DNA from: Alphaproteobacteria bacterium
GTDB taxonomy: Bacteria > Pseudomonadota > Alphaproteobacteria > UBA2136 > UBA6156
Length of the DNA: 34,666 nucleotides
Reading direction: 5' to 3'
NCBI GenBank assembly: GCA_027483385.1
Contig: JAIXUT010000185.1
Coordinates: forward strand, 1-34,666
A program made the translations under genes and the position numbers. Below, piece by piece: positions 4,270 to 30,170 of the stretch. Every line of letters starts with the position of its first letter. Positions within the stretch are counted from its first letter, which is position 1. A model generated the notes under the pieces. That model worked only from the letters and a program-made list of their open reading frames with translations. It made no database searches and was not told the DNA's origin.

Positions 4270-4304
4270 GTCCTTTTGCTAGGTAGGGTGGTGAATGAAC
4301 TTTG
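4270..4304 (+). promoter_or_regulatory. Late promoter motif copy 1: GTCCTTT-N24-TTTG
   Basis: GTCCTTT 4270-4276, TTTG 4301-4304, ATG at 4309. Confidence 0.7.
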
Positions 4305-4308
4305 TTTA

Positions 4309-5079
4309 ATGAAACCGATATTCATCCGCGACTTAATCACCCACAAACTCACGCGCCCGGCACTGCGCGATCCAGTACATTATCAATTGCGCCAGGTTAA
4401 GGCAATTGTTGTTCACTGGACGGCCAACCAATCGAAAGGTGCCAACGCTCAAGCCAACCGAAACTATTTCAACAATGGCGCTCCGGGCCCAGGCGGCACT
4501 TTCCGGCCAGCATCGGCACATTACCTGGTCGATTCCAATACCATCATACAGGCGCTTCCTGATACCGAAGTAGGCTTCCATGTGGGCGACAAGCCACTGG
4601 GGCAATACAAGCCCGCAGGCAAAGAAATGATCAAAGGCACCCGCCTTACACCCAACTACTTCACCATCGGGCTTGAGCTGTGCGCCAATGCCGATGGTAA
4701 CTGGACCGAAACCTGCGACAATGGCGCAATGCTAGCCGCTACCTTGCTGTACAAGCATGGGCTAGATCTCCCCCACCTATTGCGCCATTTTGATGTGACG
4801 GGCAAAAAATGCCCACTTCCCATGATTGAAGAATGGGCATGGATGGCATTCGTTAAAAACGTAATGCTGTACTACCAGCAACTCGATGCGCTCAATCTAC
4901 ACCCTGCTATTGTTGATACAGACGAATTGAACGTTCGTAAGGGACCCACTGCGAAATATCCGATCGCTTACACGCTTCTGAAAAATGAGCGGGTACTGGT
5001 GGAAGAAATACCCGCATTGGGATGGGTTTCTATCGGGCAGGATCAGTGGGTTAAAGCCAATTTTTTACGGCCGGTGTAG
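4309..5079 (+). CDS. N-acetylmuramoyl-L-alanine amidase endolysin with C-terminal SH3-like domain
   Basis: VKAIVVHWTAN...SAHYLVDSNTIIQALPDTEVGFHVGD...TIGLELC...HFDVTGKKCP (Amidase_2 pattern); C-terminal LNVRKGPTAKYPIAYTLLKNERV... SH3-like. ATG 4309 chosen over the listed 4258 because of the promoter. Confidence 0.85.
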   Translation: MKPIFIRDLITHKLTRPALRDPVHYQLRQVKAIVVHWTANQSKGANAQANRNYFNNGAPGPGGTFRPASAHYLVDSNTIIQALPDTEVGFHVGDKPLGQYKPAGKEMIKGTRLTPNYFTIGLELCANADGNWTETCDNGAMLAATLLYKHGLDLPHLLRHFDVTGKKCPLPMIEEWAWMAFVKNVMLYYQQLDALNLHPAIVDTDELNVRKGPTAKYPIAYTLLKNERVLVEEIPALGWVSIGQDQWVKANFLRPV

Positions 5080-5080
5080 T

Positions 5081-5114
5081 GTCCTTTCCAACAGATCTGT
5101 ATTCCCTCAAATTG
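5081..5114 (+). promoter_or_regulatory. Late promoter motif copy 2 (variant GTCCTTT-N23-ATTG)
   Basis: GTCCTTT 5081-5087, ATTG 5111-5114. Confidence 0.5.
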
Positions 5115-5137
5115 CAGCCATAAAATCAACACACAAC

Positions 5138-5578
5138 ATGAAGAATCCATTTTTGTCCAAAAACTTTTGGGCCAACATCCTCAACATCCTGGTTGTATTC
5201 TTGATCGGTGCAGGCATTGCCGTACCATCCGATACTGGCTCCGACCTGATGGATGCCATCCTGAAGTTCAATCCGTTTTTGATCGGCAGTTTGCTCATCA
5301 GCAACATTATGCTGCCGCTGTACAAAACGATCCGCAACAAATCGGGTACCTGGATGGCAAGCCTGTTAAGTACCAATTTCTGGGGCCAAATTGCCAGTGC
5401 AATTCTTTGGATCGCCACCTTTTATGGCGCTGTTATTCCGGATAATACTGCGGGTGAACTGGTGACCAATTTTGCTTCCCAAAACTGGGGGCAACTACTC
5501 AGTATTTTATTTGTAAATGTATTGCTACCAGTGCTTCACATATTTGTGAAGCCAAAAGTTATTGCAGCGCAAGGATAG
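5138..5578 (+). CDS. Putative holin / multi-TM membrane protein
   Basis: Several hydrophobic segments, directly after the endolysin; start at ATG 5138 after ACACACAAC leader. Confidence 0.55.
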   Translation: MKNPFLSKNFWANILNILVVFLIGAGIAVPSDTGSDLMDAILKFNPFLIGSLLISNIMLPLYKTIRNKSGTWMASLLSTNFWGQIASAILWIATFYGAVIPDNTAGELVTNFASQNWGQLLSILFVNVLLPVLHIFVKPKVIAAQG

Positions 5579-5602
5579 AAAGCATTCACTTTTCATTGCT
5601 TA

Positions 5603-5638
5603 AAAAGGCCTGGTATGAAATGTCATATCGGGCCTTTT
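5603..5638 (+). terminator. Intrinsic terminator
   Basis: AAAAGGCC / GGCCTTTT with inner TATGA/TCATA stem. Confidence 0.75.
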
Positions 5639-5666
5639 GTCGGTCAAAAAATCGGCACTATTGTTG
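5637..5666 (+). promoter_or_regulatory. Canonical-spacing Bacteroidota promoter TTG-N19-TATTGTTG
   Basis: TTG 5637-5639, 19-nt spacer, TATTGTTG 5659-5666 (one mismatch to TAnnTTTG); overlaps terminator tail. Confidence 0.45.
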
Positions 5667-5724
5667 TATATACCACTAATTGTCAAACACTTATTAGTTC
5701 TTATCATTCTAAATTGTCGGCAAT

Positions 5725-6243
5725 ATGAGTAAGATTATCGTTGAGGGCTATTTGCCCATTGAGCCGGGATTATTAGTGTATCTAAAGTACCGTGAAAATT
5801 TAATAGAAGGTCGGCCGCTCGTTTTACCAGGACAATCCTCCATTGCCAATATGCTTACCGCCATGATGAGCATGGCCATCATTTTTTACGATGAAGGGCG
5901 CGATCCACAACTTACGCCGCTCGAGTTACAAGCGCTCACCGCGCGCATCCGATTTGAGGCACACGGGCCAATTGCCCGCTACGAAATATTCAATGTAGCC
6001 GACCGTATTGCGCTGCATTTCAACTCATTTCTGTACAGCAGTATGCAAGACGATGTGCTGCAACTTGTCATGGACGGCAAAAGCCGGGGCAAACACGAGC
6101 AGGATACCATCGGCGAATATTTACGCCGCGCCGGTCTGGATGATTACTACGAGTATGACTCCATGAAAAAAGCGCAATACCGCGCCCGCAAGTATCGGGC
6201 ATTGCATCCGATCAAAGGACGCCAGTGGGCGCAGCAGTGCTAG
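5725..6243 (+). CDS. Hypothetical protein, candidate regulator by position only
   Basis: 172 aa ORF; no recognisable motif. Confidence 0.65.
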   Translation: MSKIIVEGYLPIEPGLLVYLKYRENLIEGRPLVLPGQSSIANMLTAMMSMAIIFYDEGRDPQLTPLELQALTARIRFEAHGPIARYEIFNVADRIALHFNSFLYSSMQDDVLQLVMDGKSRGKHEQDTIGEYLRRAGLDDYYEYDSMKKAQYRARKYRALHPIKGRQWAQQC

Positions 6244-6253
6244 TATTGTCCCT

Positions 6254-6288
6254 GTCCTTTCAGAGCAGGGTAGGGTAGCGCACATTTG
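6254..6288 (+). promoter_or_regulatory. Late promoter motif copy 3: GTCCTTT-N24-TTTG
   Basis: GTCCTTT 6254-6260, TTTG 6285-6288, ATG 6293. Confidence 0.7.
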
Positions 6289-6292
6289 CGCT

Positions 6293-6781
6293 ATGTCATT
6301 TCAAATTGTATATACTTCTTGCCAATCCGGCACCCTTCCAGGTGCAGGGAAATTGGAATTTGTGCCGATCAGCGAGGTAGATACTACCACGTTTATTCGG
6401 GCATTTTCAGAAGGATACAATCAGCAGCCCGCATTTACCAGTGTAGCCTGGTACACAATTCCTTACGTTTCTGGCTCCGGCCAATGGAATGAGGATCAAG
6501 TTGAAAATGACCAGGGCGAATACTTCAACCTGAATCTATCGGCAGTCATGCCATCGGATATTCCCGATGTGCGCGGCTGGTGCAATCTCATGAAGCAACA
6601 GCGGTTCATCGTGCGCGTTACGCGCGAAGGTCAGCCACTCCTGCTCGGATCACCCGAACAGCCCTTACGTTTTGAAAGCAAATTCGATAGCGGTGCCGAT
6701 GGTGCCGATGGTCGAGTACACCGCATCACTTTTTCCGGCGTTTCGCTCTGCAAATCGCCCGGTTATATACCTGTTTTCTGA
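6293..6781 (+). CDS. Phage structural/hypothetical protein
   Basis: 162 aa ORF, 4 nt behind late promoter copy 3, stop overlaps protease start. Confidence 0.65.
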   Translation: MSFQIVYTSCQSGTLPGAGKLEFVPISEVDTTTFIRAFSEGYNQQPAFTSVAWYTIPYVSGSGQWNEDQVENDQGEYFNLNLSAVMPSDIPDVRGWCNLMKQQRFIVRVTREGQPLLLGSPEQPLRFESKFDSGADGADGRVHRITFSGVSLCKSPGYIPVF

Positions 6782-7926
6782 TGAATCATAAGAATCAACC
6801 ATATTACAAACTGCTCACCGAGCAGGGCGCTACCGAAGCAACCATATTCCTGTACGGTTACATTGGTGAAGAATGGTCCTGGGATCCAGCAAAGTACGAA
6901 TACGTCCAAAAGGGCGTAACGGATATTGAGTTTGTGAAAGAACTCAATGCTTTGGCAGCGCAATACCCGGTTATCCACTTGCGCATCAATTCTCCAGGAG
7001 GTGACTTTTTCCATGGCAATGCGATCATGTCGGCCATTCAAAACAGCGCCGCCGAAATCCATACCTGGAACGATGGTATTTGCGCCAGCATGGCCGCCGA
7101 TATTTGGATGTGTGGCAAACAGCGCCACATGGCCAAAAATGCGCTGTTGATGGTGCATCCAGCATGGAACTATTGCTCAGGCAATGCCCAAACCATGCGC
7201 GAATGTGCCGAAGCGCTGGACAAATTCACCGAAAGCGCCATCACTGCCACCGCTGCCAGCATTGGAATTACCGCCGATGAAATGCGCAGCCGATACTACG
7301 CCGATTACAAGGATCACTGGCTCACGTACAGTGAAGCCGTGACCGATGGCCTGGTATCCGACACTACCGAATACGCTGCCGCCGATCCGATGAAGGTTTC
7401 GGCTGGCATGCCTTATAAACAGCTGCTGGAAACGATGATTACCAGCGAGGCCACCGTCAAAAAAGAGGCTGATACCTCTATTATCGGTCGTATTAGAGAG
7501 GTTCTGAGTGATATGCTCGGTACCCAGAAACAACAACCTGTTATCACTCAACAAAAAGACATGAAATTCGAAGATTTCAAAAAAAGCCTCGAGGATGGCT
7601 CGCTGGATCCAGCGGCGGTAAAAGCCGAACTGGATGCCTTGGAAGCCGCTAAAGCGCCAAAAACGGATTCCGAAAGTGAAGCGATCAAAGCCTTGCGCGA
7701 TGAATTCACGGCGGTAAAAACCGAACTGGAAAATACCCGTAAAGCGCTGAATGAACTGGGCGCAAAGCCTGGTGCTGAGCGCAGCACGCCGGATGCTCCG
7801 GAAACGGACCTTCCAATCGCAGGTATTGGCACACCCGATGCGAAAAAAGCCCTGGATGAAGCCAATGCGAATTTGGCAAAAACTGCGGCTTTGGGCCAAA
7901 ACCCATACACGCAACGTGTGATCTAA
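6781..7926 (+). CDS. ClpP-like prohead protease fused to scaffold-like C-terminus
   Basis: LRINSPGGDFFHGNAIMSAIQ...GICASMAADIWMCG...ALLMVHPAW (S14 serine, histidine motifs) followed by a charged coiled-coil tail. Confidence 0.85.
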   Translation: MNHKNQPYYKLLTEQGATEATIFLYGYIGEEWSWDPAKYEYVQKGVTDIEFVKELNALAAQYPVIHLRINSPGGDFFHGNAIMSAIQNSAAEIHTWNDGICASMAADIWMCGKQRHMAKNALLMVHPAWNYCSGNAQTMRECAEALDKFTESAITATAASIGITADEMRSRYYADYKDHWLTYSEAVTDGLVSDTTEYAAADPMKVSAGMPYKQLLETMITSEATVKKEADTSIIGRIREVLSDMLGTQKQQPVITQQKDMKFEDFKKSLEDGSLDPAAVKAELDALEAAKAPKTDSESEAIKALRDEFTAVKTELENTRKALNELGAKPGAERSTPDAPETDLPIAGIGTPDAKKALDEANANLAKTAALGQNPYTQRVI

Positions 7927-7973
7927 TCAATCACGTAATCAAAACACGCTCACTTTTTTATCTGTAAAAAAAT

Positions 7974-8939
7974 ATGAATCATTTACTCTCCATTGAGGCA
8001 ACTGCGGCCATGCTGAATCAGCAAGTGGTGCAGTTTTCTCCTGAAATCAAAACCAAGTTCCGGGTAGGGCTTGAATTTGAAAATATGTTGCCATTTGTAC
8101 AGGCCGATAAAATGTACTCAGCGGTAAACGTCACTACCGGTGATATTTTGCAGCCGTACCAGCCCCGATTTACGCCCAACAACCAGGAGGCTTTTGACGC
8201 CGTTGACAATACCCTTCGGCCGATCAAATTGGACCTTGAATTCACCGAGGAGCAACTTGAAAAGTTCTACGATAAGTGGGCTGCAAACTGGTTTGAAGGC
8301 GGTAAAGATCCAATGCAATGGACTTACCCCAAATACATAATCGAAGCGGAAATCATGCCGTCTTTCCGTGACAATCTGAACGATGCCGCATGGGCAGGTG
8401 AATATGTAGCGCCTACTGCTGGTGTACCGGGTGCAGTATTGGAATCGGTAAACGGTTACAAAAAAGCCATCGCCGACGCCATCACCGCAGGCAAGCTGGT
8501 ACCGGTAGCCTCTGGATCATATACCGCATCGGATATCCGCTCCAAATTGGAAGACTGGATGCTAGCCATGCCCCGCGAAGTGCGCGGCCGGAGCGGTAAA
8601 ATCCTCATGTCTGATTCGTGGATGCGCAAGTACTACTACGATTACCGTGGCGATTTCAATGTATCTACCTGGCAGCAACTTAACCAGCAAATGGGCGGCT
8701 TGACTGTGGATGGTACTAACTGCATGATTGTAGGCGTGAAAGCCATGGAAGGCAGCAACCGGTGGATTTTCCTTCCCGATAATCAGCAAAACATGATCAT
8801 CGGTACGCGTCGTGGCTACCCACAGTACCCGCAGTTCATTTTCCAGGCTGACCTGTACACATTGAAAGCCAAGGCGGTTATTTACCGCTTCTTTGGCTTT
8901 GAGTACTGGTCGAATTTGTATGTGAACGACCAGGCGTAA
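7974..8939 (+). CDS. Major capsid protein
   Basis: 321 aa, directly after protease/scaffold; composition and position consistent with MCP. Confidence 0.75.
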   Translation: MNHLLSIEATAAMLNQQVVQFSPEIKTKFRVGLEFENMLPFVQADKMYSAVNVTTGDILQPYQPRFTPNNQEAFDAVDNTLRPIKLDLEFTEEQLEKFYDKWAANWFEGGKDPMQWTYPKYIIEAEIMPSFRDNLNDAAWAGEYVAPTAGVPGAVLESVNGYKKAIADAITAGKLVPVASGSYTASDIRSKLEDWMLAMPREVRGRSGKILMSDSWMRKYYYDYRGDFNVSTWQQLNQQMGGLTVDGTNCMIVGVKAMEGSNRWIFLPDNQQNMIIGTRRGYPQYPQFIFQADLYTLKAKAVIYRFFGFEYWSNLYVNDQA

Positions 8940-8980
8940 CCCGCTTTCGCTAGGGCTACAGCGGGTAAATCATTTGAATA

Positions 8981-9020
8981 GCCGGGTGGGCAAAAGCCAA
9001 GATTGCCGCCCGGCACTTTT
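8981..9020 (+). terminator. Terminator or attenuator downstream of MCP
   Basis: GCCGGGTGGGCAA / TTGCCGCCCGGC followed by CACTTTTTT; preceded by a second hairpin ACCCGCT/AGCGGGT 8939-8966. Confidence 0.65.
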
Positions 9021-9047
9021 TTCACAAAATAACCTTCTACATATATC

Positions 9048-9401
9048 ATGTCAGATCAGGAAAAAGAACTCAAAAAGCAATTGGATGAGGCCCGCAAAGA
9101 AGCCGCCGACCTCCAAAAGCAAATTGCTGCCGCCGCAGCCGAAAAAAAGGTAGCAGAAGATGCCCTCCTTTCCTTGCAGGCTGAAATTGCTTCCGGCAAA
9201 GCACAACCCAAGGTAACGGGCACCTACAAAGGCCATGCATTCGATGCCGGACACTTGCGCGTGCGTGATGGTAATGGCGTACTTCACGATGCCCAAATCC
9301 TCATCAATGAGGCAGCGGATGGTGAAGGCAACGCAGCAGCCTGCGCAGTGTTGGATCGCCTTATCGAAATCAACTATGCCCACTTCCAAAAAGTAGCATA
9401 G
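9048..9401 (+). CDS. Small coiled-coil structural protein
   Basis: N-terminal coiled coil KELKKQLDEARKEAADLQKQIAAAAAEKK. Confidence 0.6.
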   Translation: MSDQEKELKKQLDEARKEAADLQKQIAAAAAEKKVAEDALLSLQAEIASGKAQPKVTGTYKGHAFDAGHLRVRDGNGVLHDAQILINEAADGEGNAAACAVLDRLIEINYAHFQKVA

Positions 9402-9432
9402 TCTTTCCAATCACTTCAAAATACGCATAATC

Positions 9433-9981
9433 ATGTGTGAAATTAATAAATTAACCAATGGCTCATGCCTAACCAATGCCGCTGGTATAAAAGGCACAGG
9501 CTACATGGCGCCCGCTGAAGAGTTTGCCTCCTGGCCTGCATACCAGACACCCAGCGCGGCTGGCGATGGTAAAACGGTCCAGTTGTCTGGTAACTTTTCT
9601 TTCACCGGCGCGGGTAGCGGCAAAGGGTATTTCCGGTCTTTCCCCATGCTTATGGAGAAGGGTGGAGTGAGTTACAAGGCCGTTGGCGGTACTGGCTCAA
9701 AATCACTGGAGGTAATTTTTACCTTTTATGTTGTCGGCTTGGATGCGGTGCAGTTGGAATGGCTGAAGGATGTTAAAAACATCCCAGGCGTATTCTTGTG
9801 TCCTGATAAAAACGGTACCTTGCATACGTTGGGCACCAAGGATGATCCAGCCTACCTCCAAGAGGCGGATGGCGGCACCGGTGTTGCCGCCACGGATGAT
9901 CGTGGTACTTTATACACAATTCGTTGGATTACCAGCACGCCTACTTTGTACACTGGAACGATCAACCAAACGCCAATCTAG
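9433..9981 (+). CDS. Putative major tail (tube)-like structural protein
   Basis: 182 aa, beta-rich Gly/Thr-rich, position after head genes. Confidence 0.35.
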   Translation: MCEINKLTNGSCLTNAAGIKGTGYMAPAEEFASWPAYQTPSAAGDGKTVQLSGNFSFTGAGSGKGYFRSFPMLMEKGGVSYKAVGGTGSKSLEVIFTFYVVGLDAVQLEWLKDVKNIPGVFLCPDKNGTLHTLGTKDDPAYLQEADGGTGVAATDDRGTLYTIRWITSTPTLYTGTINQTPI

Positions 9982-9982
9982 T

Positions 9983-10210
9983 ATGTCAGAAAAGGAGAAG
10001 TTTACCACGACCAATACACTTCCTGATTCAATTAAGGAAAAGTATGAATTGGAAAAACTGGAGGGCGGTCCTGTATTCGCCTTGCCGCATTATGGCCAGG
10101 GATCGGTAGATTTTTCTACCATCGAATTGGATACCTGTGAGGCGCTCATCAAAGCGGGATTTCCGCACTTGAAGCGCCGACCTGAAAAAGTAAAGGGAAT
10201 TAAGGAGTAG
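9983..10210 (+). CDS. Hypothetical small protein
   Basis: ATG 9983 just after upstream stop; MSEKEKFTTTNTLPDSIKEKYELEKLEGG... Confidence 0.6.
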   Translation: MSEKEKFTTTNTLPDSIKEKYELEKLEGGPVFALPHYGQGSVDFSTIELDTCEALIKAGFPHLKRRPEKVKGIKE

Positions 10211-10238
10211 TTTGAATTTGTTTCATGAGTCTCGTTGG

Positions 10239-10267
10239 GCCCGCTTCACATCGAAGCGGGCTTTTTT
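10239..10267 (+). terminator. Intrinsic terminator
   Basis: GCCCGCTTC-acatc-GAAGCGGGC-TTTTTT. Confidence 0.9.
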
Positions 10268-10269
10268 AT

Positions 10270-10304
10270 GTCCTTTTCTGATGACCCGTGTGCTGCAACC
10301 TTTG
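10270..10304 (+). promoter_or_regulatory. Late promoter motif copy 4: GTCCTTT-N24-TTTG
   Basis: GTCCTTT 10270-10276, TTTG 10301-10304, ATG 10309. Confidence 0.7.
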
Positions 10305-10308
10305 CAGT

Positions 10309-10986
10309 ATGACGATGTACGACTACTTTTTACAAGAGAAAATGACGTTTGCGCAAGGGGTAAATATCATGAATAATTATCCGATTGCCAGCCTTGGGAT
10401 TACTAAGTCGGCTGCTGAAAACCTAAACAATATTGCCAGAAAACGCAAGCCTACGGAGGCAGAGCGGGGTAAATTATATATTGCATTGCGGGGCATACCT
10501 TACAAAGCAACAGAAAAGCCAGCACCTGAGCCACCCAAGCAAAAGCCAATACCTATACCGGTACCGATACAAGAACCTGCGCCTACGCCGGATGATTTTC
10601 GAGCACACCCGCTATTCAAACAGGCAAAGGAGTTGCACAAGCGCCAAAGTTATGTGCACGCCCTGATGGCCAATGCCGCCACCGATGAGGAGCGCGCCCA
10701 GCACGCCATTGAACTGATGGAAACGATCACGCCGCAACTCGATGGGCTCTATGATCGTATGCGCAACCCTGAGCCCAGTACTGCCTACACTTTCAAATAT
10801 GAAGTACAAGGGTATGATCAGAACGAACCTGCGGCCGACCTAAAAAAACTGCTGAGTCTGCGCACGCGGATTAGCAAATTAAACAAGATCATTCCGCAGG
10901 CAAAAAGCCTTGAACGGCGTAAGGAACTGGAGGCTGAATTAGCCGCCAAAATCGCCGAAAAAGAACGAATCGAAGCCGCAAAATGA
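10309..10986 (+). CDS. Hypothetical protein, Pro-rich linker and C-terminal coiled coil
   Basis: ATG 10309 set by promoter; overlaps next gene by ATGA. Confidence 0.65.
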   Translation: MTMYDYFLQEKMTFAQGVNIMNNYPIASLGITKSAAENLNNIARKRKPTEAERGKLYIALRGIPYKATEKPAPEPPKQKPIPIPVPIQEPAPTPDDFRAHPLFKQAKELHKRQSYVHALMANAATDEERAQHAIELMETITPQLDGLYDRMRNPEPSTAYTFKYEVQGYDQNEPAADLKKLLSLRTRISKLNKIIPQAKSLERRKELEAELAAKIAEKERIEAAK

Positions 10987-11639
10987 AGAATATAGCAAGT
11001 ATAAAAGCCAGTGATATCACGCCCGAATTGCTACCCGAATACCGGTGGCGTGAACGCATGCATGGCCTTAGCGAAAGCCAAATCGTAATTGATTGGCTGG
11101 ATAATAATTACGACTTTCCGCTCAAGCCCAAAGAGGAACATATCCGCGATCGATGGTTTGCCGCCAGGGCTTATTTCATGAAGGGATTGAAGTACATGAA
11201 GATCCTGGATAAGTTGCAAGCCGAGTTTGAAATATCGGTCAGCCAGGCGCGCAACGACATTCGCAATATGCGCCACGTATTCGGCGAAATTGGCGAAATA
11301 CCAAAAGATGTGCATCGGCAACGCGCAATCAGCATGGCACTGGATGCCTACAAAAAAGCCAAGAAAAACGATGATGCGGATGCCATGGTAAAGGCCACCA
11401 ATACCTATATGGCTGCTGCAGGACTGGACAAGGACGATCCTGATCGGATTGATCTGGAGAAACTCATGCAGGAACGCAACTATGTGGAGGTGCTGGATCC
11501 GGATGTCCGCAGTCTGATTATGAACTTCATTCAACAAGCCGGTGGTAGTGTGGACATTACCAAATTTTTTGAAACCGTAGCGAAGGCAAAGAACGCCGAA
11601 TACGTAAACTACGAAGAAATGCCCGCCGATGACGAATAG
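10983..11639 (+). CDS. Putative terminase small subunit
   Basis: Directly upstream of and overlapping the large terminase; helix-rich N-terminus; family not recognised. Confidence 0.45.
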   Translation: MKNIASIKASDITPELLPEYRWRERMHGLSESQIVIDWLDNNYDFPLKPKEEHIRDRWFAARAYFMKGLKYMKILDKLQAEFEISVSQARNDIRNMRHVFGEIGEIPKDVHRQRAISMALDAYKKAKKNDDADAMVKATNTYMAAAGLDKDDPDRIDLEKLMQERNYVEVLDPDVRSLIMNFIQQAGGSVDITKFFETVAKAKNAEYVNYEEMPADDE

Positions 11640-13257
11640 ACCGCCCACCACTTCTGAAATGATCAAGGAGCGCATTGGGCGCTTGCACAACGGCGGTGGC
11701 GGTGATTGGAAAACCCTCAAAGACCAGGTGGATGAGCACTACCGGACCATCCCATACAACGCTGCGCAGCAAATTGCCATCCTGAGCACGGCCATGCTCA
11801 AAACGGTGAAGGAACTGGATTTGGAATGGGGTAGGGGAACGGGCAAAACCACGGTATTTGCCCGATACAGCCGCGTAATTGCCACTGAAATGCCGCGCGG
11901 ATCCTTTCAGTGGATTGTACCGACTTATCAGAAATTCCTGACCGAAATTATACCGGCGTACATACACGCCTTGGAAATGCAAGGGCTGTATAAAGACCTG
12001 CATTATTTCATCGGTCGACGCCCGCCATCAAAATGGAAATGGCCAGAGCCTTACAAGCCACCGTTGAAATACGACAACTTTATCACGTTTTACACCGGCT
12101 TTGGTTTTCACCTGCTCAGCCAGGATATTTCCGGCAGCGGCCGGGGATTGAGCACCGATGGCGAATTTGCAGATGAGGTGGTAATGCTGGACCCGAAAAA
12201 GATGGATGAAAACAGCACGCCCAGTATTCGAGGTAGTAATTACCGTGTGCTGGGGAACAACCGGTGGTTTGATTTTCGGTTGAAAGCCAGCAGTACCGCG
12301 CTCACGCCTGCTGGTTCATGGTTCACCGATCGAGAGGAACTCGCGCAAATGGATGATGGCCAGCGGCATTTATTCCTGAAAGCCAATTGCATTTGCAACA
12401 TGGCGAATTTGAAACCCGACTACCTTTCGGTTGCAAAAAAATCGGCACTCGATCTGGAAATATTCAATGCGGAGTACTTGAATATCAGGCCTCGATTTGT
12501 GCGCGGTGGTTTTTATGCGATGCTGGAGGAAACACGGCACTGTTACACCAACTACAATTATTCGTTCTACACACCCGATGCAGTGGGCATCAAGGCAACG
12601 TGCCAGGGTGACAGCGATCTTACGCCAGGTGAAAAATTATTGATCGGAATGGACTTTGGTGCAGCGATCAATAGCATCACGGTAAGCCAGCAATACCCGG
12701 GAGAATTCCGGACGCTTAAAGAGTTTTTCGGCAAAGGGGCCGAAGGGAAAACACAGGATGATGTGTGTGAAGAGTTCCATCAATACTACTTGCCACACCA
12801 GGCGAGTAATCCGCACATTTTGTTTTTCTACGATGCCACGGGTAATTCGGCCACTGGTAATACGAAACTCAACCGGGCACAACAGGTAGAACAATATCTC
12901 AGCGCGCGCGGCTGGAAAGTGCGGCGTATGACGGTGAGCGGTACCAATCCGCACCATTTTCAGAAATATTTGCTTTGGGAGCGGATATTCAATGAGCAGG
13001 ATCCTCGATTCCCGCGCTTCCGAATCAACAAGCAAAATGCAAGGTTTACATACCTGAGCATGTCGCGCGCGCGCTCGAAAAAGCGGCCCGATGGCACCAT
13101 TGGGAAAGACAAACGGGAAGAGCGCAGCGATAACCCCAACCGACAACTGGCAACCGATCTATCTGATGCGCTGGATAATCCTGTGTATGTGCTGTACGCG
13201 CACCTGATGCGCGATTATGGTCCCTCATTGCCCGACAGCAATATGAGCGGCAGATAG
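11629..13257 (+). CDS. Terminase large subunit
   Basis: Walker A LEWGRGTGKTTVFARYS; acidic DGEFADEVVMLD; LLIGMDFGAAINSITVSQ nuclease-domain-like segment. Confidence 0.85.
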   Translation: MTNRPPTTSEMIKERIGRLHNGGGGDWKTLKDQVDEHYRTIPYNAAQQIAILSTAMLKTVKELDLEWGRGTGKTTVFARYSRVIATEMPRGSFQWIVPTYQKFLTEIIPAYIHALEMQGLYKDLHYFIGRRPPSKWKWPEPYKPPLKYDNFITFYTGFGFHLLSQDISGSGRGLSTDGEFADEVVMLDPKKMDENSTPSIRGSNYRVLGNNRWFDFRLKASSTALTPAGSWFTDREELAQMDDGQRHLFLKANCICNMANLKPDYLSVAKKSALDLEIFNAEYLNIRPRFVRGGFYAMLEETRHCYTNYNYSFYTPDAVGIKATCQGDSDLTPGEKLLIGMDFGAAINSITVSQQYPGEFRTLKEFFGKGAEGKTQDDVCEEFHQYYLPHQASNPHILFFYDATGNSATGNTKLNRAQQVEQYLSARGWKVRRMTVSGTNPHHFQKYLLWERIFNEQDPRFPRFRINKQNARFTYLSMSRARSKKRPDGTIGKDKREERSDNPNRQLATDLSDALDNPVYVLYAHLMRDYGPSLPDSNMSGR

Positions 13258-13261
13258 GCTT

Positions 13262-13296
13262 GTCCTTTGGGATCGATGGGACACAAGCCATTTTTG
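13262..13296 (+). promoter_or_regulatory. Late promoter motif copy 5: GTCCTTT-N24-TTTG, nested in a hairpin
   Basis: GTCCTTT 13262-13268, TTTG 13293-13296; inside hairpin 13257-13289. Confidence 0.65.
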
Positions 13297-13339
13297 TGTC
13301 GCTAATCGAAACACGTTTCAACATTTTTCACAATAAAAA

Positions 13340-14191: not shown

Positions 14192-14219
14192 GATACAATT
14201 GGTTTTGGATGGAAGAGAT

Positions 14220-14253
14220 GCTCAGGCCGCAATGGCTTGGGCATTTTTGTTTT
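14220..14253 (+). terminator. Intrinsic terminator
   Basis: GCTCAGGCC-gcaat-GGCTTGGGC (two G-T wobbles) then ATTTTTGTTTTT. Confidence 0.75.
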
Positions 14254-14261
14254 TACCCTTT

Positions 14262-14301: not shown

Positions 14302-14853
14302 ATGGCGCAGTATCTTTCCAACATAGCAGACTACTACAAGTACCTGTGCGAGCAGCACCCGCTGCTACTGCACTCCAATACGAGTGGAGCACGGGTATTT
14401 GAAGTGAAAGCCTACGAACAGGCCTTTTCGGACTTCCGCACTGCCATAAAGCCGAAAGATTATTTTGTACGCATGATATTGCCCACCATGACCATGCGCA
14501 GCCAGCAAATGCAGGCAGTGAAAAACTACCAGGTAGGCCTGGTGTTTGGCAAATTTTACAGCCGCCGCGAAGGATCCAGTACCGATCTACTCAACGCCTA
14601 CACAGATGCTGAAAAATTAGCAGATTCATTCATCACGCGCATGGTGGCCGATAGTCGCAATGGGCACCCGTTGTTTTTCGGAAGCATTGATGTCGTAGAT
14701 AACTTGAAAGTTCAAGGCGATTTTTGGCAAGCCGAAGGTGATGGATCGTATGGCGCGGTGATGTACCTCTTTGATTTTTCCACCTTCCGTGGCCTCGATG
14801 CGGATTGCTCCGATGTTGTATGGCTTGACGGCGGATTAACTCCTTATCCATAA
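14302..14853 (+). CDS. Phage structural/hypothetical protein
   Basis: In-frame ATG 14302 (MAQYLSNIADYYKYL) 5 nt after TTTG; listed ORF start 14209 lies upstream of the promoter and inside the terminator. Confidence 0.65.
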   Translation: MAQYLSNIADYYKYLCEQHPLLLHSNTSGARVFEVKAYEQAFSDFRTAIKPKDYFVRMILPTMTMRSQQMQAVKNYQVGLVFGKFYSRREGSSTDLLNAYTDAEKLADSFITRMVADSRNGHPLFFGSIDVVDNLKVQGDFWQAEGDGSYGAVMYLFDFSTFRGLDADCSDVVWLDGGLTPYP

Positions 14854-20753: not shown

Positions 20754-20777
20754 CGGGGGAACCCATAAACGACAACT

Positions 20778-21380: not shown

Positions 21381-21381
21381 C

Positions 21382-21975: not shown

Positions 21976-22136
21976 TCACCACGCACGAATGCATCACCAT
22001 CATCTTGCTGGTGGGCAATTTGAGTGGGATATACCATGCATGGCCACGAATAGCGCATAAGAAATGGGCGATCCCTGCAGGAGTAGGGATCGCCCTTATT
22101 TCATTGGCAATCGTTTACCGTATTTTCTGCACATGA
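21972..22136 (+). CDS. 54-aa two-TM membrane protein (not in ORF track)
   Basis: MITTHECITIILLVGNLSGIYHAWPRIAHKKWAIPAGVGIALISLAIVYRIFCT; ATGA overlaps at both ends. Confidence 0.6.
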   Translation: MITTHECITIILLVGNLSGIYHAWPRIAHKKWAIPAGVGIALISLAIVYRIFCT

Positions 22137-23971: not shown

Positions 23972-23972
23972 C

Positions 23973-24007
23973 GTCCTTTCGCGTAGTGGTGGCCGGTCAC
24001 AACTTTA
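23973..24007 (+). promoter_or_regulatory. Late promoter motif copy 7: GTCCTTT-N24-TTTA
   Basis: GTCCTTT 23973-23979, TTTA 24004-24007; ATG 24044. Confidence 0.6.
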
Positions 24008-24043
24008 CGGGCGAAACGATTCTATCACTACAAACCATTACCC

Positions 24044-25009
24044 ATGGAAGAAGTACCAGTAACAAAAATTACCATCGAAATAAGCGGCGTAAAACGCGAT
24101 GTGACCGTTCCATCGTCTTGGAATGACCTGTCGCTGCGCAGTTTGCTCCTATTTTATGAAACCATGTTCACCACGCCGGGTGATGAGTTTACCCAGAGCG
24201 CGTTTACCATGGTGAAACTCCTAAGCATGGCTCAGTACATGCTTAAACTAGATAACGCAGCGCTGGCCTCCTGGGAGGCCGATTGTATTAGTAACGCCGC
24301 CGCCGATCCCGATGCTTTGGTATCCGGCGAGGACGCTTTTCTCGATGAATTGCACCAGGTATTGCATGCCACGATCAGCGGCTTATTTATCATCGAAAAA
24401 ACGGAATCGGGCGCTACGACCTATGCGCTGAAGTACAACCGGACCGTCAACCCGTATCCATCGCTACACTACACGCCCAAAGCCGAAAAGGGCACGCGAA
24501 AAATGGCCAAAACACAGGTGCTCTATGCACCGGGTGATAGCCTTGGAAACATCACGATATATGAACTTGGCTACACGTTTACCCTGTTCGAAACTTACCT
24601 GGAAACACAGGACGAAAGTTTCGCGGATACCTTGATGGCCGTGCTCTATCGCCCATCAAGACCATTAACGAGAAAGGAGAAAGACAGCAACTGGAGCGGA
24701 GATCGACGCATGCCATTGCGGGGCTATGAGGCAAAAATTATCGAACGGTCCAAGATGATGAAAACGCTGGATCCGATGTGCCGGCGCGTGATTATGTTTT
24801 GGTTCGCGAGCTGCCGGCATGCGATTGTGAGTGCGCATCCAAAGGTTTTCAGCAGCGCCGGGAGTGATAATCAAAAGGAAATCGGCTACGGCTGGGGCGG
24901 TGTACTGCTCAGTATTGCCGGTGGACCTGCGCATCTCAATGAGGTCGCAGACCAGCACTACAGTAATGCGCTTACTTGGCTGAGTATGAAGGCCGATCAG
25001 AATCAATAA
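24044..25009 (+). CDS. Hypothetical phage protein
   Basis: 321 aa ORF downstream of motif copy 7. Confidence 0.65.
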   Translation: MEEVPVTKITIEISGVKRDVTVPSSWNDLSLRSLLLFYETMFTTPGDEFTQSAFTMVKLLSMAQYMLKLDNAALASWEADCISNAAADPDALVSGEDAFLDELHQVLHATISGLFIIEKTESGATTYALKYNRTVNPYPSLHYTPKAEKGTRKMAKTQVLYAPGDSLGNITIYELGYTFTLFETYLETQDESFADTLMAVLYRPSRPLTRKEKDSNWSGDRRMPLRGYEAKIIERSKMMKTLDPMCRRVIMFWFASCRHAIVSAHPKVFSSAGSDNQKEIGYGWGGVLLSIAGGPAHLNEVADQHYSNALTWLSMKADQNQ

Positions 25010-25027
25010 CGTTTTAAAATCACATTG

Positions 25028-25309
25028 ATGAAAAAGATCACAAAGGTTGCCCTGGCGCAACTACTTCACGAAAAAACCGGCCACCCATCTACCACTGCAC
25101 TGGAGGTACTTAATGCGATTGATGACATCATCGCGGCTGAAATGAAAAAGGGCGGAAAAGTTTACTTGGACAACATTGGCACGTTCGAACGGGTTGAAAA
25201 GCCCGCTACTCGGAAGTTTAGCCCGACCAAAGGGGAGATTATTGATATTCCAGCGCGCGTGGTCGTGAAACTCAAAGCGTCAAAGACGTTGGTGGATCGC
25301 GTGAAGTGA
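25028..25309 (+). CDS. HU/IHF-family DNA-binding protein
   Basis: MKKITKVALAQLLHEKTG...VYLDNIGTFERVEKPATRKFSPTKGEIIDIPARVVVKLKASKTL. Confidence 0.85.
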   Translation: MKKITKVALAQLLHEKTGHPSTTALEVLNAIDDIIAAEMKKGGKVYLDNIGTFERVEKPATRKFSPTKGEIIDIPARVVVKLKASKTLVDRVK

Positions 25310-25358
25310 AGCGAGGTTGCTTAGATAGACAATCTTGAAACAATCTGAGTATCTGCTG

Positions 25359-25394
25359 AAAAAGCCGCACGGACATAATCCGTTGCGGCTTTTT
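25359..25394 (+). terminator. Strong bidirectional-type intrinsic terminator
   Basis: AAAAAGCCGCACGGA-cataa-TCCGTTGCGGCTTTTT. Confidence 0.9.
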
Positions 25395-25446
25395 CATTAC
25401 TAATCGCATATTGTAAAAATATTTTCAAAAAAAGTAAACAATACTA

Positions 25447-25476
25447 TTGACAAGTAAATAAAAGTGTTTACCTTTG
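25447..25476 (+). promoter_or_regulatory. Canonical Bacteroidota promoter TTG-N19-TACCTTTG
   Basis: TTG 25447-25449, TACCTTTG 25469-25476, spacer exactly 19. Confidence 0.75.
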
Positions 25477-25517
25477 TAGGGTCAAAGCAATTAAGCAATG
25501 ATTTAAAATAGAAGAAT

Positions 25518-25688
25518 ATGAAACCCGATTTTATTCCCGCCGAATTAATTGGCAAATTTGAAACAATCACTGAGGCTGCTAATGCCTTGTTAACTTGGAA
25601 AAAAGAAAACCGTGGTCCTGGTCGTCCACGTACGCTCGATTCAGGCGTTAAACTATCAATATTGAAGAAATTGTTAAAAACAGTATGA
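25518..25688 (+). CDS. 56-aa protein with GRPR motif, partner of XRE gene
   Basis: MKPDFIPAELIGKFETITEAANALLTWKKENRGPGRPRTLDSGVKLSILKKLLKTV; stop overlaps start of 25685 gene. Confidence 0.6.
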   Translation: MKPDFIPAELIGKFETITEAANALLTWKKENRGPGRPRTLDSGVKLSILKKLLKTV

Positions 25689-25930
25689 AATCTGGCGAAC
25701 TGATTGCTGAAATTCGCAAGTTTAGAGGCAAGACACGCCAGGAACTTGCAAGTTTGCTTGGAGTATCGAAGCAACGAATGAGCGCGATAGAAAGTGCATC
25801 TGATGTTTCTTTGTCTATGATGCAACGTATCTGTGCGACGCTTGATTTTGAAATAATTGCATTTCCGATTGAATCACGGCCCGCTAAACAATCGGCTGAT
25901 ATAACGCTTTCGGAGCCTGAAAAAGAATGA
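25685..25930 (+). CDS. XRE-family HTH regulator
   Basis: GELIAEIRKFRGKTRQELASLLGVSKQRMSAIESASDVSLSMMQRICATL. Confidence 0.85.
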   Translation: MKSGELIAEIRKFRGKTRQELASLLGVSKQRMSAIESASDVSLSMMQRICATLDFEIIAFPIESRPAKQSADITLSEPEKE

Positions 25931-25965
25931 AAACATAAATCGTTTACACAAAAAATAACTCAACA

Positions 25966-26250
25966 ATGCAAATTACAGAAATAACAGATGAAGCGCTCAA
26001 AGCATTGGGTGTAAAATTTGAATACCAATCAAACTATCCTGGTCACGGTGGACGCATAATTGACGCTGGCCCATTTAAGGACTTTAATTTGCGCCCTTCC
26101 ATTGCAACCAGAACAGGCTTTTGGTATGCCGATATTCCAGATGGCAAAGACAAGGAAATGCAGGAAAAATTTTCAGGGCATTTTTATCGCAGAAATGACG
26201 GCCACCCAATTATTTCGGCTGGATTATTGCTCACCACTAAATCTAAATAG
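25966..26250 (+). CDS. Hypothetical protein of moron-like cassette
   Basis: 94 aa ORF with AACTCAACAATG leader. Confidence 0.6.
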   Translation: MQITEITDEALKALGVKFEYQSNYPGHGGRIIDAGPFKDFNLRPSIATRTGFWYADIPDGKDKEMQEKFSGHFYRRNDGHPIISAGLLLTTKSK

Positions 26251-26251
26251 C

Positions 26252-26512
26252 ATGCAAGTTTATGTAATAACAGGCCCTTCGCCCAACAAAAACACATTAC
26301 GGTCAAGTATTTCCAAATGCGAAGACGGTACACTTGATCAATATGTTCCGAATGCTTCTGAAAATTCTCATCCATTAGGGCGCTGCCGAAGATACTATTG
26401 CAACAGTAGGCACCAATCGATGCTGTTTATTGCTAGTGATCTACCAATTGATAAAGTTATAAAGCATGCGGTAGAATCTAACATACTGGTATTGGATTCA
26501 ATGTACGCTTAA
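26252..26512 (+). CDS. Hypothetical protein of moron-like cassette
   Basis: ATG 26252 immediately after upstream stop; MQVYVITGPSPNKNTLRSSISKCEDG... Confidence 0.55.
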   Translation: MQVYVITGPSPNKNTLRSSISKCEDGTLDQYVPNASENSHPLGRCRRYYCNSRHQSMLFIASDLPIDKVIKHAVESNILVLDSMYA

Positions 26513-26520
26513 TTACTTTT

Positions 26521-26551
26521 ACAAAGCCCCGTGCAACACACGGGGCTTTGT
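26521..26551 (+). terminator. Intrinsic terminator/hairpin
   Basis: ACAAAGCCCCGTG-caaca-CACGGGGCTTTGT, perfect 13-bp stem. Confidence 0.8.
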
Positions 26552-26593
26552 AATTTAATGTATTTTATTACTTAAAAGGCTATTTAACATCTT

Positions 26594-26628
26594 GTCCTTT
26601 CTAAATGCCACCTACACGGCCATTTTTG
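26594..26628 (+). promoter_or_regulatory. Late promoter motif copy 8: GTCCTTT-N24-TTTG
   Basis: GTCCTTT 26594-26600, TTTG 26625-26628, ATG 26637. Confidence 0.7.
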
Positions 26629-26636
26629 CCAGCATT

Positions 26637-26999
26637 ATGATAGCAATTAAGGACGTATTGGCCCACATGCACGCGGGAAAGCCTTTTAGCCTGCGCGCAG
26701 TACGCTACGATAAGCGGCGGCGTGAACGCATTGGGCAAATCATCGAGGTGCCTGAAGCCGTGCTCGTATGGGGCGATGGCGGCAATGATCGCGTTGCACA
26801 ACTCCCTGAGCAGCGCCAACCCACGGCGCTCGAGCGCTCCTATTTTGCTGCCGAAGAGGCCCCGCGCAAAAATCCCAACCACGAAGCGAACTACACCCGC
26901 AACATTCGCATGCTCGTGGATGGCCAGCCAACAGAGTCAATGATGAAAATTCATCCATTGCTCATCATTCAATTCAACGGACAAGTAACCACGCCATGA
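26637..26999 (+). CDS. Hypothetical phage protein
   Basis: In-frame ATG 26637 (MIAIKDVLAHMHAGKPFSLRAVRYDKRR) downstream of promoter copy 8; overlaps portal start. Confidence 0.6.
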   Translation: MIAIKDVLAHMHAGKPFSLRAVRYDKRRRERIGQIIEVPEAVLVWGDGGNDRVAQLPEQRQPTALERSYFAAEEAPRKNPNHEANYTRNIRMLVDGQPTESMMKIHPLLIIQFNGQVTTP

Positions 27000-28375
27000 G
27001 TACGCCCAATCAAAACGTCATCACGCTGCACGCTATGCAGATCGGCGATAAAATACAGGTACTGCATGACGGCGTACTTACCCAGGAATATAATGTAACG
27101 GGTGCAGGTGCTCAAAAGGCCGATAAAACAACGGCACCGATCCCAACCTGGACGGAAGTCGGCACCCGGTGGGCATATTGGGGTGATAATGACCTGCTGC
27201 CCACCGATATGCGCAAAAAGATCGAGGCGGTCCCGATCGCAGGCGCTACGCTGGAAAAGAAGATCAATATGCTCCAGGGTAACGGTATTGTGTATTACAA
27301 CACGGCCGATATGGCCAAGGGCCCCAATGTGGAGCGGCAATCATTTGCTGAAATCGAGGATTGGTTGGCCGAAAATCGCATCCAGGAGGAATGGTTCGCT
27401 GCCCAGTGCGCAGACTATGCGCTGCCTTATAATGCTTTTAGCGAAATGATTATGAGCCGCGACAAAACTAAAGTCACAGGCTTATATCATATCGGTGCTG
27501 AAAATGCGCGCTTGAGCAAAGCAAATGCTCGTAACCAGATTGATTTTCTGTTGCATTCTTACCATTTCCCATTTGGTACCGCGCAGGATGATACTACACG
27601 GGTAGCAATACCACTGTACAAGTGGTACGATCGCCAAAACTTCCTCGATGGACTCCAGGGCCGCAAATTCGCCTGGCATACACGCTTCCCAACCCCTGGG
27701 ATGATCTACTATGCGCGCGCCTGGTGGCTCGGATTGTTTAAAAACAAGGGCTGGCTCGATGTTTCGGCGCAAGTGCCGCTGATTGTGCATGGTATGCAGA
27801 CAAATCAGATCTCGCTAAAGTACATCATTGAAATACCTGAAATTTTCTTCATCATCCGGCATCCGGATTGGACCACTTACGACCAGGCGCAGCGCCAACG
27901 GGTAATTGATGAGAAAGTAGCCGAAATCAATACATATCTGGCCGGTCCCGAGGCTGGATTGAAGAGCATCGCTTATGTTTTCAAGGAAAACGAGATCACA
28001 GGCAATGCGATGGGTAAAATCAACATCATTCCGGTTGATGATAAGTCAAAAAGCGGCACTTGGGTGCCAGATTCGTATGCTGCCGATGCACAGATCGTGC
28101 AAGGCTTCGGCATGGATCCTTCACAGATCGGATTGGCACCAGAAGGCGGAAAAATGGGCTCCGGATCCGGTAGCGATAAGCGAGAATCCTATAATTTGAT
28201 GATTACGCTCAATACACCCGACCAGCGCCGCATTTTGGAGCCTTTGAACTGGATCAGCCGTTACAATGGTTGGGGCGTGACGTTCGTGGTGGACCACACG
28301 GCACACACCACCACCAATCAGCAAGAAAGCGGCCTCAAGCCAACGCCGACAACCACAATAGTAACTCCTAAGTAA
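26996..28375 (+). CDS. Portal-like protein
   Basis: WAYWGDNDLLPTDMRKKIEAVPIAGATLEKKINMLQGNGIVYY...; length and content match Bacteroidota phage portal-like proteins. Confidence 0.6.
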   Translation: MSTPNQNVITLHAMQIGDKIQVLHDGVLTQEYNVTGAGAQKADKTTAPIPTWTEVGTRWAYWGDNDLLPTDMRKKIEAVPIAGATLEKKINMLQGNGIVYYNTADMAKGPNVERQSFAEIEDWLAENRIQEEWFAAQCADYALPYNAFSEMIMSRDKTKVTGLYHIGAENARLSKANARNQIDFLLHSYHFPFGTAQDDTTRVAIPLYKWYDRQNFLDGLQGRKFAWHTRFPTPGMIYYARAWWLGLFKNKGWLDVSAQVPLIVHGMQTNQISLKYIIEIPEIFFIIRHPDWTTYDQAQRQRVIDEKVAEINTYLAGPEAGLKSIAYVFKENEITGNAMGKINIIPVDDKSKSGTWVPDSYAADAQIVQGFGMDPSQIGLAPEGGKMGSGSGSDKRESYNLMITLNTPDQRRILEPLNWISRYNGWGVTFVVDHTAHTTTNQQESGLKPTPTTTIVTPK

Positions 28376-28406
28376 TCTTAATCCCCCCGTCAAAACATGC
28401 AATCTC

Positions 28407-28802
28407 ATGCTAAAATTTCTGAACGATGCGCTTCCCATCCTCACATTTTTGAGTGGGAGCGGAATTATGTACCTCCTGCTTTTCCGGCAGAAATATCGCC
28501 GGGCATCCAATCGAATGGTAGAGGACGAATTCATGTCCTTATCGCTGGTGGTCGACAAATCGACCCGCCAAATATCGGAATTGAGCGACCGGCTGCGGGA
28601 AATGGAGGAAATGCGGTATCAACTCACTGTGCAGATCAACGAGGCGAAAAAAGTCATTGAGGACCTTAAAAGTGAAAATAACACACTGAAAGCATTGATT
28701 GACCAATTAAATAACCATGAAGCAAATGAATCAATTGTTGACAGAAGCCCAAAAGGTAAGCGAACGCGCAAGCGCCCTACTGGCCCAAGCGTACAGCCTT
28801 GA
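28407..28802 (+). CDS. Membrane-anchored coiled-coil protein
   Basis: N-terminal TM then long coiled coil. Confidence 0.6.
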   Translation: MLKFLNDALPILTFLSGSGIMYLLLFRQKYRRASNRMVEDEFMSLSLVVDKSTRQISELSDRLREMEEMRYQLTVQINEAKKVIEDLKSENNTLKALIDQLNNHEANESIVDRSPKGKRTRKRPTGPSVQP

Positions 28803-28902
28803 AAGTGATATGCGCACACTACTCAATCAACTCCCGCTGCCGACAAAAACGAAGCGGGTAAATATCCAACAGCATGGCAGAGTTATTCAGCACATTCGCT
28901 GA
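28717..28902 (+). CDS. Small coiled-coil protein bridging two overlapping genes
   Basis: Different frame; overlaps neighbours by 86 and 29 nt; fills the 28803-28873 gap. Confidence 0.4.
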   Translation: MKQMNQLLTEAQKVSERASALLAQAYSLESDMRTLLNQLPLPTKTKRVNIQQHGRVIQHIR

Positions 28903-29896
28903 CTTCAAACAATACGTCGGTGGCCGGGTCAACCAATCGGTTGAACTGGATTCGCTGGCATCCCATATTTACGAGGCAGCACGGCGTCACATTTCGCCGT
29001 ACTTGGGGCAAGCGCAGTATACAGCGCTGTTGTCCGGTTCACTCAGTGGTGCGCAAACGGCATTGCTGCCATTTATCAAACGCCCGCTTGCATTGCTTAC
29101 GCTGTATGAGTACAGCAAAGTGGCAGGGGTTGAATTTGGGGAGAGCGGCATGCACCGCATTGAAACACAAGACCGTAAGTCTGCATACCGCTACCAGGAG
29201 AAGCAATACCAATTGGATTGCTTGGAGAAAGGGTATGAAGCCCTGGAGATTATGTTGAAGTTCCTTGATGATGGCAAGGCGACCTACACTGACTGGGCAG
29301 CCTCGGAAGAGGCTAAGGTCCATCGCACACCCCTACTCAACTATGCCTCGGACTTCCGGCGCCTTACCCATATACAATGTGATCGCTACACCTTTGAGGC
29401 CTTACGACCCATCATATCCGAGGTGCAGACCTATGCCGTACAGAAGGCACTGCCATCTACCTTCTGGTCAGCCTTCCAGTCGCGCCACTTGGCAGGCACA
29501 CTGACCACCGAGGAGAAAGCCTTACGCGAGATCATGCGTAAGGCTATTGCACATAAGGCCATGGAAGAGGCAACCAAGCTACACTGGATCCAGTTAGGTG
29601 GTGGCCGTGTATTCGTATCGGAAGAGTTCGGAGAGCAAGCCCAGGTCAATCGCACCATGCCCAATGGATCAGCAGCAGGGCTATACATCCCACGCGCTAT
29701 CTGGGCTGATCGGCACAGTGAAGCATGGAAAGCATACATCATGGAGAATGCTTCATCGTTCACAACTGTATTCGATACGGCAAGTGGAGGCAGCAACAGC
29801 AGCGCCGATGCCTGGCACATCGCCACCACCGATGAAGCCGATGCCGAAGCCATTGCACTCGATGAGGTACGGCGTCGGCCAGTGTTCAGGCTATAA
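28874..29896 (+). CDS. Putative head-tail connector-like phage structural protein
   Basis: 340 aa downstream of portal; FSTFADFKQYVGGRVNQSVELDSLASHIYEAARRHISPYLG resembles DUF6712-type Bacteroidota phage proteins. Confidence 0.45.
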   Translation: MAELFSTFADFKQYVGGRVNQSVELDSLASHIYEAARRHISPYLGQAQYTALLSGSLSGAQTALLPFIKRPLALLTLYEYSKVAGVEFGESGMHRIETQDRKSAYRYQEKQYQLDCLEKGYEALEIMLKFLDDGKATYTDWAASEEAKVHRTPLLNYASDFRRLTHIQCDRYTFEALRPIISEVQTYAVQKALPSTFWSAFQSRHLAGTLTTEEKALREIMRKAIAHKAMEEATKLHWIQLGGGRVFVSEEFGEQAQVNRTMPNGSAAGLYIPRAIWADRHSEAWKAYIMENASSFTTVFDTASGGSNSSADAWHIATTDEADAEAIALDEVRRRPVFRL

Positions 29897-29918
29897 CAAC
29901 CCCATCATAGATCACAAC

Positions 29919-29954
29919 GCGAGGGCGCAATCGAGCAATCGGCTGCGCCCTCGC
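29919..29954 (+). terminator. Perfect 11-bp hairpin after connector gene
   Basis: GCGAGGGCGCA ... TGCGCCCTCGC; no T tract, so terminator assignment uncertain. Confidence 0.45.
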
Positions 29955-30135
29955 TGCATATATCCCGGTTTTTGCGATGAATAATCAACCGGCGCGTCAG
30001 GCGAAGGCGGGATTCTCGCGTAATTCAAAACCATGGTTGAAAATATTTGACTTCCATAAATACTAACAGCTCAACTCGTTGACATTCAGCAAAATGTATT
30101 TTGGTAAATTGTGCTGAATGTGATGCGATTTTACT

Positions 30136-30170
30136 GTCCTTTTGATTCAAATCGGGCGAATGAATCTTTG
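30136..30170 (+). promoter_or_regulatory. Late promoter motif copy 9: GTCCTTT-N24-TTTG
   Basis: GTCCTTT 30136-30142, TTTG 30167-30170, ATG 30175. Confidence 0.7.

Follow-up and report, generated by a model that had tools for sequence, protein, structure and literature searches.

A 34,666-nucleotide stretch of contig JAIXUT010000185.1 (the window), from a genome of 6.28 Mb in which the contig around it measures 211,752 bases, carries a prophage whose late region contains repeated copies of the two-part motif TGTCCTTT-N24-TTTG. This motif is almost certainly a real and widespread promoter class of Bacteroidota phages, and its distribution indicates a phage-family-wide feature found across the phylum rather than one private to the window phage. 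It would serve a large family of temperate Bacteroidota siphophages as their late promoter. The preferred reading, with a probability of roughly 55%, is that a phage-encoded activator of the family of gene 5725-6243, working with the host RNA polymerase, drives this promoter class. In the proposed mechanism, the 3′ half would be a weakened -7 box of the primary sigma factor, in which A-11 and TTTG are retained and T-12 is lost, while the 5′ half, with TGTCC occupying about -40 to -36 and TTT following directly at -35 to -33, would stand in for the -33 element. The activator, expressed from a non-TGTCCTTT promoter of its own near the early/late boundary, would bind the 5′ half and recruit or reposition the host sigma-ABfr RNA polymerase, and transcription would start 4-5 nucleotides (nt) past TTTG.

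The nine plus-strand GTCCTTT copies listed in the original prediction (4270, 5081, 6254, 10270, 13262, 14262, 23973, 26594 and 30136) are present exactly as described, as is the single minus-strand copy (6214-6220), which has no paired box. Eight of the nine read TGTCCTTT and the copy at 23973 reads CGTCCTTT; no TGTCCTTT was found on the minus strand of the window. The claimed spacing also holds. TTTG follows after exactly 24 nt in seven of the nine copies, against 0.13 expected from shuffling with gaps of 22-26 nt permitted, the tetramer at this distance from the 23973 copy is TTTA, and the 5081 copy is the exception, its ATTG following a 23-nt gap. The A of nAnnTTT[GA] is present in all eight N24 copies, and none of these eight -7 boxes starts with T. 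The combined pattern GTCCTTT-N21-ANNTTT[GA] occurs eight times on the plus strand, whereas 2000 first-order Markov sequences average 0.007 occurrences and none exceeds 1. An Rfam search of the window gave no match.

The scan of related Bacteroidota phages that the original prediction had called for finds box and spacing conserved. When phage and prophage sequences of several Bacteroidota classes are pooled, the N24 gap accounts for 139 cases and every other gap for at most 5. Scanning viral_contigs with TGTCCTTT-N21-ACTTTTG retrieved at least 120 loci, and among the matches listed 23 of the non-seed TGTCCTTT copies in these loci have TTTG after 24 nt, and no other gap occurs more than 5 times. 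The 12 seed-bearing virus records contain two to six sites each, their reversed controls none. An 18-base pattern run over genome_contigs (257 Gb) gave 35 matches, 31 of them with Bacteroidota names, where about 7 would be expected by chance over the whole collection. The Bacteroidota matches span Bacteroidales, Flavobacteriia, Sphingobacteriia, Chitinophagia and Cytophagia, and many precede phage genes, such as tape measure genes, tail genes and a small pre-portal gene homologous to that at 26637. Homologs of this small gene have a TGTCCTTT promoter of the leaderless arrangement in Mucilaginibacter, Pedobacter, Bacteroides and Zunongwangia. The nearest relative of the window phage, IMGVR_UViG_3300010885_077192, has 98% terminase identity and keeps six exact sites. 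In prophages of Bacteroides xylanisolvens and Zunongwangia (loci L241 and L208) the box is lengthened to TGTCCTTTTTTAAGG, which holds the palindrome CCTTTTTTAAGG.

The earlier promoter reading, with a Bacteroidota-type -7 half, is strengthened by the exact spacing kept in unrelated phages and prophages. The canonical sigma-ABfr promoter has TTTG at -33 and TAnnTTTG at -7 (PMC7366714, PMC6847099). The motif departs from the housekeeping form, with its -7 TAHHTTTG, at both ends: among 130 pooled sites, for which A-11 and TTTG were required for entry, position -12 is T in only 35% (and in 0 of the 8 window boxes), and positions -35 to -32 read TTT followed by a pyrimidine, with G at -32 in 9%. 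The possibility that sigma-ABfr itself recognises TGTCCTTT as nothing more than a strong -33 element, making an activator unnecessary, draws on the sigma-ABfr-like -7 half and on the overlap of TTT at -35 to -33 with the canonical -33 TTTG. It is nevertheless improbable, since a constitutive promoter of such strength should also turn up in chromosomes and should switch on late genes in lysogens, while chromosomes outside the host genus show no enrichment of the box, and the -7 box is weakened, more so in the cultured Polaribacter phage Leef_1. A packaging, recombination, replication or post-transcriptional signal could be repeated, strand-biased and spread through the late region, but the fixed distance to the -7 box and to ATG and the placement of the sites directly after the T-runs of upstream terminators are promoter geometry, which makes such a non-promoter element very improbable indeed.

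The distance to the start codon is the second regular feature of the motif. In six of the nine window copies, an ATG (at 4309, 6293, 10309, 14302, 26637 and 30175) lies 4, 4, 4, 5, 8 and 4 nt past TTTG, respectively. An ATG exactly 4 nt past TTTG is found at 63 of 130 non-redundant phage and prophage sites (48%), compared with 1.8% of the other nAnnTTTG sites in the same DNA, a pooled set that does include loci retrieved by a pattern demanding N4-ATG. The same distance occurs in 9 of 23 non-seed sites, among the matches listed, of viral loci retrieved without N4-ATG, and in many sites of loci retrieved by protein search. When starts were selected without the box, as nAnnTTTG-N3-8-ATG with an open reading frame (ORF) of at least 70 amino acids, 29 of 67 starts from 14 phage lineages had GTCCTT where the motif predicts it, and a few others had it with one mismatch. 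In Flavobacterium johnsoniae, mapped starts fall 4-5 nt past the -7 box (PMC6847099). Motif-driven mRNAs with ATG at 4-5 nt should therefore be leaderless, and about half of the late mRNAs would be predicted to have the A of ATG as their first base. In the hosts of motif phages, leaderless mRNAs are uncommon: 5′ untranslated regions shorter than 10 nt make up 3.7% in Bacteroides thetaiotaomicron (PMC7366714), and 87% of F. johnsoniae leaders exceed 10 nt (PMC6847099).

The original prediction attributed the late regulon to a dedicated activator or an alternative sigma factor. The regulator idea is supported by a candidate gene that co-occurs with the motif, while the sigma factor fares poorly: Sigma70_r4_2 (PF08281) scored above the cut-off in 0 of 9 motif-bearing virus records, with weak sub-cut-off matches in two, other sigma models and host sigma factors not having been searched. 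The predicted leaderless starts and the candidate gene are both points absent from that earlier reading. In an all-against-all comparison, motif phages have a virion module in common (portal, adaptor, tape measure, terminase, capsid and protease) and, besides it, one small non-virion family, that of gene 5725-6243, which directly precedes promoter P3 at 6253. Members have 8-27% pairwise identity to the window protein, and an iterated profile gathers 50 of them with good E-values. The consensus has a conserved C-terminal helix pair, D-x2-I-R-x-F ... FDNLKRWYYRER, and AlphaFold models, with predicted local distance difference test (pLDDT) scores up to 84, combine a long helix with an N-terminal part of mixed structure and a C-terminal helix pair that is basic. 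The only significant BFVD match is a Leef_1 protein. A ribbon-helix-helix domain, an early idea from a weak BFVD match, was dropped.

A protein-only search of viral_contigs gave 33 loci; those of the first query have the motif on the gene strand in 16 of 16 cases, mostly downstream of the gene. Whole virus records found by the 5725 protein alone contain the motif in 24 of 25 cases (83 sites, reversed controls 0), and the sole motif-less record is an 11.6-kb fragment. The gene lies beside the protease in most phages, and in phage Mae-Yong924-2 it lies in the early region by a helicase, away from the virion genes. This variable location suits a regulator better than a virion component. A tblastn search of INPHARED with the candidate found nothing; the homologs in Leef_1, Mae-Yong924-2 and MT835542 were obtained from the fold search, the portal search and the profile. 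No activator was found in Pfam and PHROG searches of the early genes. An XRE-type helix-turn-helix gene (25685-25930, plus strand), located in the late region with no GTCCTTT box immediately upstream, was set aside as the activator, its profile family matching in only six lineages.

Several observations weigh against a 5725-family activator. The window protein has no match in Pfam, PHROG or NCBIfam, and sequence and fold searches of the PDB gave no significant match and no DNA-binding fold. No homolog was detected in four motif-bearing records: G044, which has five sites and only a 10% profile match; G045 and G056, which also have no detected terminase, capsid or protease homolog; and G050, which is cut by a contig end. 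The co-occurrence is in part kinship, since the motif phages have their virion module in common. In addition, host-genus genomes contain about two real-looking chromosomal sites each without the 5725 protein. On balance, the 5725-6243 family protein, a candidate DNA binder, is the best candidate for the late-gene switch, with somewhat better than an even chance of being it. The fuller proposal has about even odds: an undescribed late-activator family with no fold match, commandeering the primary sigma factor through TGTCCTTT phylum-wide, with mostly leaderless late mRNAs and with box and protein diverging together.

Divergence of this kind is seen in one prophage. A random sample of the phylum contained two further genomes with a 5725 family protein, G153 and G207, and in G207 the contig ends beside the gene. 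The G153 prophage has the shared virion module and a divergent 5725 homolog, and no TGTCCTTT with a -7 box was found in it. It has GTCCTA[ACT] six times on the gene strand and never on the other, most copies keeping the usual spacing to a -7-like box, which in two of them is followed 4 nt later by ATG; TTT at -35 to -33 is absent from this variant. The box change is a single instance that was looked for after the fact. Leef_1 (Helgolandviridae, NC_062750) has six TGTCCTTT copies, all on the plus strand, with N23 and xTTG variants among its weaker -7 boxes; its promoters are not discussed in the paper describing it (PMC8776804). Mae-Yong924-2 (L283, MZ570427), a reported Microcystis phage, has four TGTCCTTT-N24-TTTG sites, two with the full nAnnTTTG, as well as the 5725 family gene and a Bacteroidota-phage-like portal, and its true host may be a Bacteroidota bacterium within the culture.

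The chromosomal sites bear on another explanation, in which a host-encoded factor, either a regulator or a minor sigma factor, reads TGTCCTTT and is exploited by the phages, the 5725 protein having some other job at the early/late boundary. In 21 host-genus genomes, with the host genome sampled as stretches, chromosomal TGTCCTTT..ANNTTTG outside the window phage peaks at N24 (49 sites), with 14 at N25 and mostly 2-6 elsewhere, and within the genus the 5725 family was found in the window genome only. This could reflect a separate factor of like preference in the host genus, or a single host factor acting on chromosomal and phage sites alike. Some of the chromosomal sites precede secreted-peptide genes or a small-RNA-like element, which would suit a host factor. 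Outside the genus, however, there is no chromosomal enrichment (19 sites against 37 in reversed controls outside the class, and 29 against 31 among class-mates), and the well-formed copies in Bacteroides, Caecibacteroides and Zunongwangia are located in the prophage. A phylum-wide host factor without chromosomal targets would be odd, and this explanation is considered unlikely, though less so than direct reading by sigma-ABfr.

Two arrangements recur among the host-genus loci. At one group of loci (L032-L037, L049), tandem TGTCCTTT promoters, spaced about 225-380 bp in most genomes, and an ATCTGCC-N-G-N-ATTGAAAT element upstream of them precede the gene of a short secreted peptide whose end reads DYII..D..P. 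At other loci (L002, L039-L041, L044-L047), several TGTCCTTT promoters stand before a conserved element that has a CTTTTCATGAGATTATA core and a hairpin resembling a terminator, possibly a small RNA or leader family outside Rfam; Rfam searches of the host loci gave implausible miRNA matches only. No clear -33 element emerged when 400 kb of host chromosome was scanned de novo for spaced k-mers. Three Chitinophagaceae genomes (L178, L195, L203) have TGTCCTTT-N20-TACTTTTG or a CACTTTTG-like box, followed by N4-ATG, before a predicted DJ-1/GlxA-type regulator gene.

A search of the open-access literature found no account of the motif, and how this group of Bacteroidota phages controls late transcription appears not to have been described. 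With one portable signal, late operons and their start codons can be predicted in prophages of Bacteroides, Alistipes, Mucilaginibacter, Polaribacter and other genera. It points to a testable activator gene, makes leaderless translation testable in a phylum without Shine-Dalgarno use, and may offer inducible promoter parts for gut Bacteroides. Among the downstream products named in the original prediction, endolysin, protease, terminase, HU, portal and tape measure are borne out by the searches, while holin and capsid are assigned by position only (Table 1).

Table 1. Predicted late promoters and annotated genes in the window
Feature	Position	Strand	Remarks
Late promoter P1	4269..4304	+	TGTCCTTT-N20-GAACTTTG; ATG at 4309 (4 nt); upstream of amidase endolysin
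Atypical copy P2	5080..5114	+	TGTCCTTT, ATTG after 23 nt; precedes ORF 5138-5578
Late promoter P3	6253..6288	+	TGTCCTTT-N20-CACATTTG; ATG at 6293 (4 nt); kept in IMGVR_UViG_3300010885_077192
Late promoter P4	10269..10304	+	TGTCCTTT-N20-AACCTTTG; ATG at 10309 (4 nt); terminase operon downstream
Late promoter P5	13261..13296	+	TGTCCTTT-N20-CATTTTTG; leader of about 40 nt to ATG 13340
Late promoter P6	14261..14296	+	TGTCCTTT-N20-CACTTTTG; ATG at 14302 (5 nt)
Late promoter P7, variant	23972..24007	+	CGTCCTTT-N20-CAACTTTA; leader, then ATG 24044
Late promoter P8	26593..26628	+	TGTCCTTT-N20-CATTTTTG; ATG at 26637 (8 nt); small gene and portal downstream
Late promoter P9	30135..30170	+	TGTCCTTT-N20-AATCTTTG; ATG at 30175 (4 nt); neck/tape-measure genes downstream
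Endolysin (N-acetylmuramoyl-L-alanine amidase)	4309..5079	+	PF01510
ORF, holin by position only	5138-5578	+ (by P2)	No PHROG match
Candidate late activator, 172 amino acids	5725..6243	+	No Pfam, PHROG or NCBIfam match; just before P3
ClpP-like head maturation protease	6781..7926	+	Pfam/PHROG searches
Probable major capsid protein	7974..8939	+	Position after protease; family in 11 motif-phage lineages; no Pfam/PHROG match
Terminase large subunit	11629..13257	+	Library search
HU-type DNA-binding protein	25025..25309	+	phrog_379
Portal protein	26996..28375	+	Library and portal searches
Tail tape measure protein	30620..33364	+	Library search
Integrase-like gene	33365-34552	-	Right boundary; profile family in 9 motif-phage lineages

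The motif shares with the sigma-ABfr promoter A-11 and T-8 T-7 T-6 G-5, with a start expected 4-5 nt downstream. It differs in its unconserved T-12, in having an invariant 8-bp TGTCCTTT (-40 to -33) where the sigma-ABfr promoter has a weak -33 element, and in its predicted leaderless mRNAs, a type rare in the hosts. Leef_1, a portal relative also retrieved through the portal search, resembles the window phage in its six TGTCCTTT copies and its homolog gp39, and differs in its more degenerate -7 boxes. T4 middle promoters combine a MotA box with the host -10 box by sigma appropriation. At the sequence level, the likeness is that a phage box takes the place of the -35 region and a host -10-type box is retained; the differences are that no homology was found for the 5725 candidate, an AsiA-like co-activator not having been searched for, and that late rather than middle genes are served. 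Mu C/Mor, P2 Ogr and the Gram-positive ArpU/RinA proteins are small phage late activators that are made before the late genes and act on several late promoters. Such a regulator gene would be expected in every motif phage, and the 5725 family reaches 24 of 25 records in co-occurrence, though not the four motif-bearing records named above. The 5725 candidate differs from these activators in matching no family in the three libraries searched and in a predicted fold unlike any PDB entry at significance, but it resembles them in being small and in lying near the early/late boundary.

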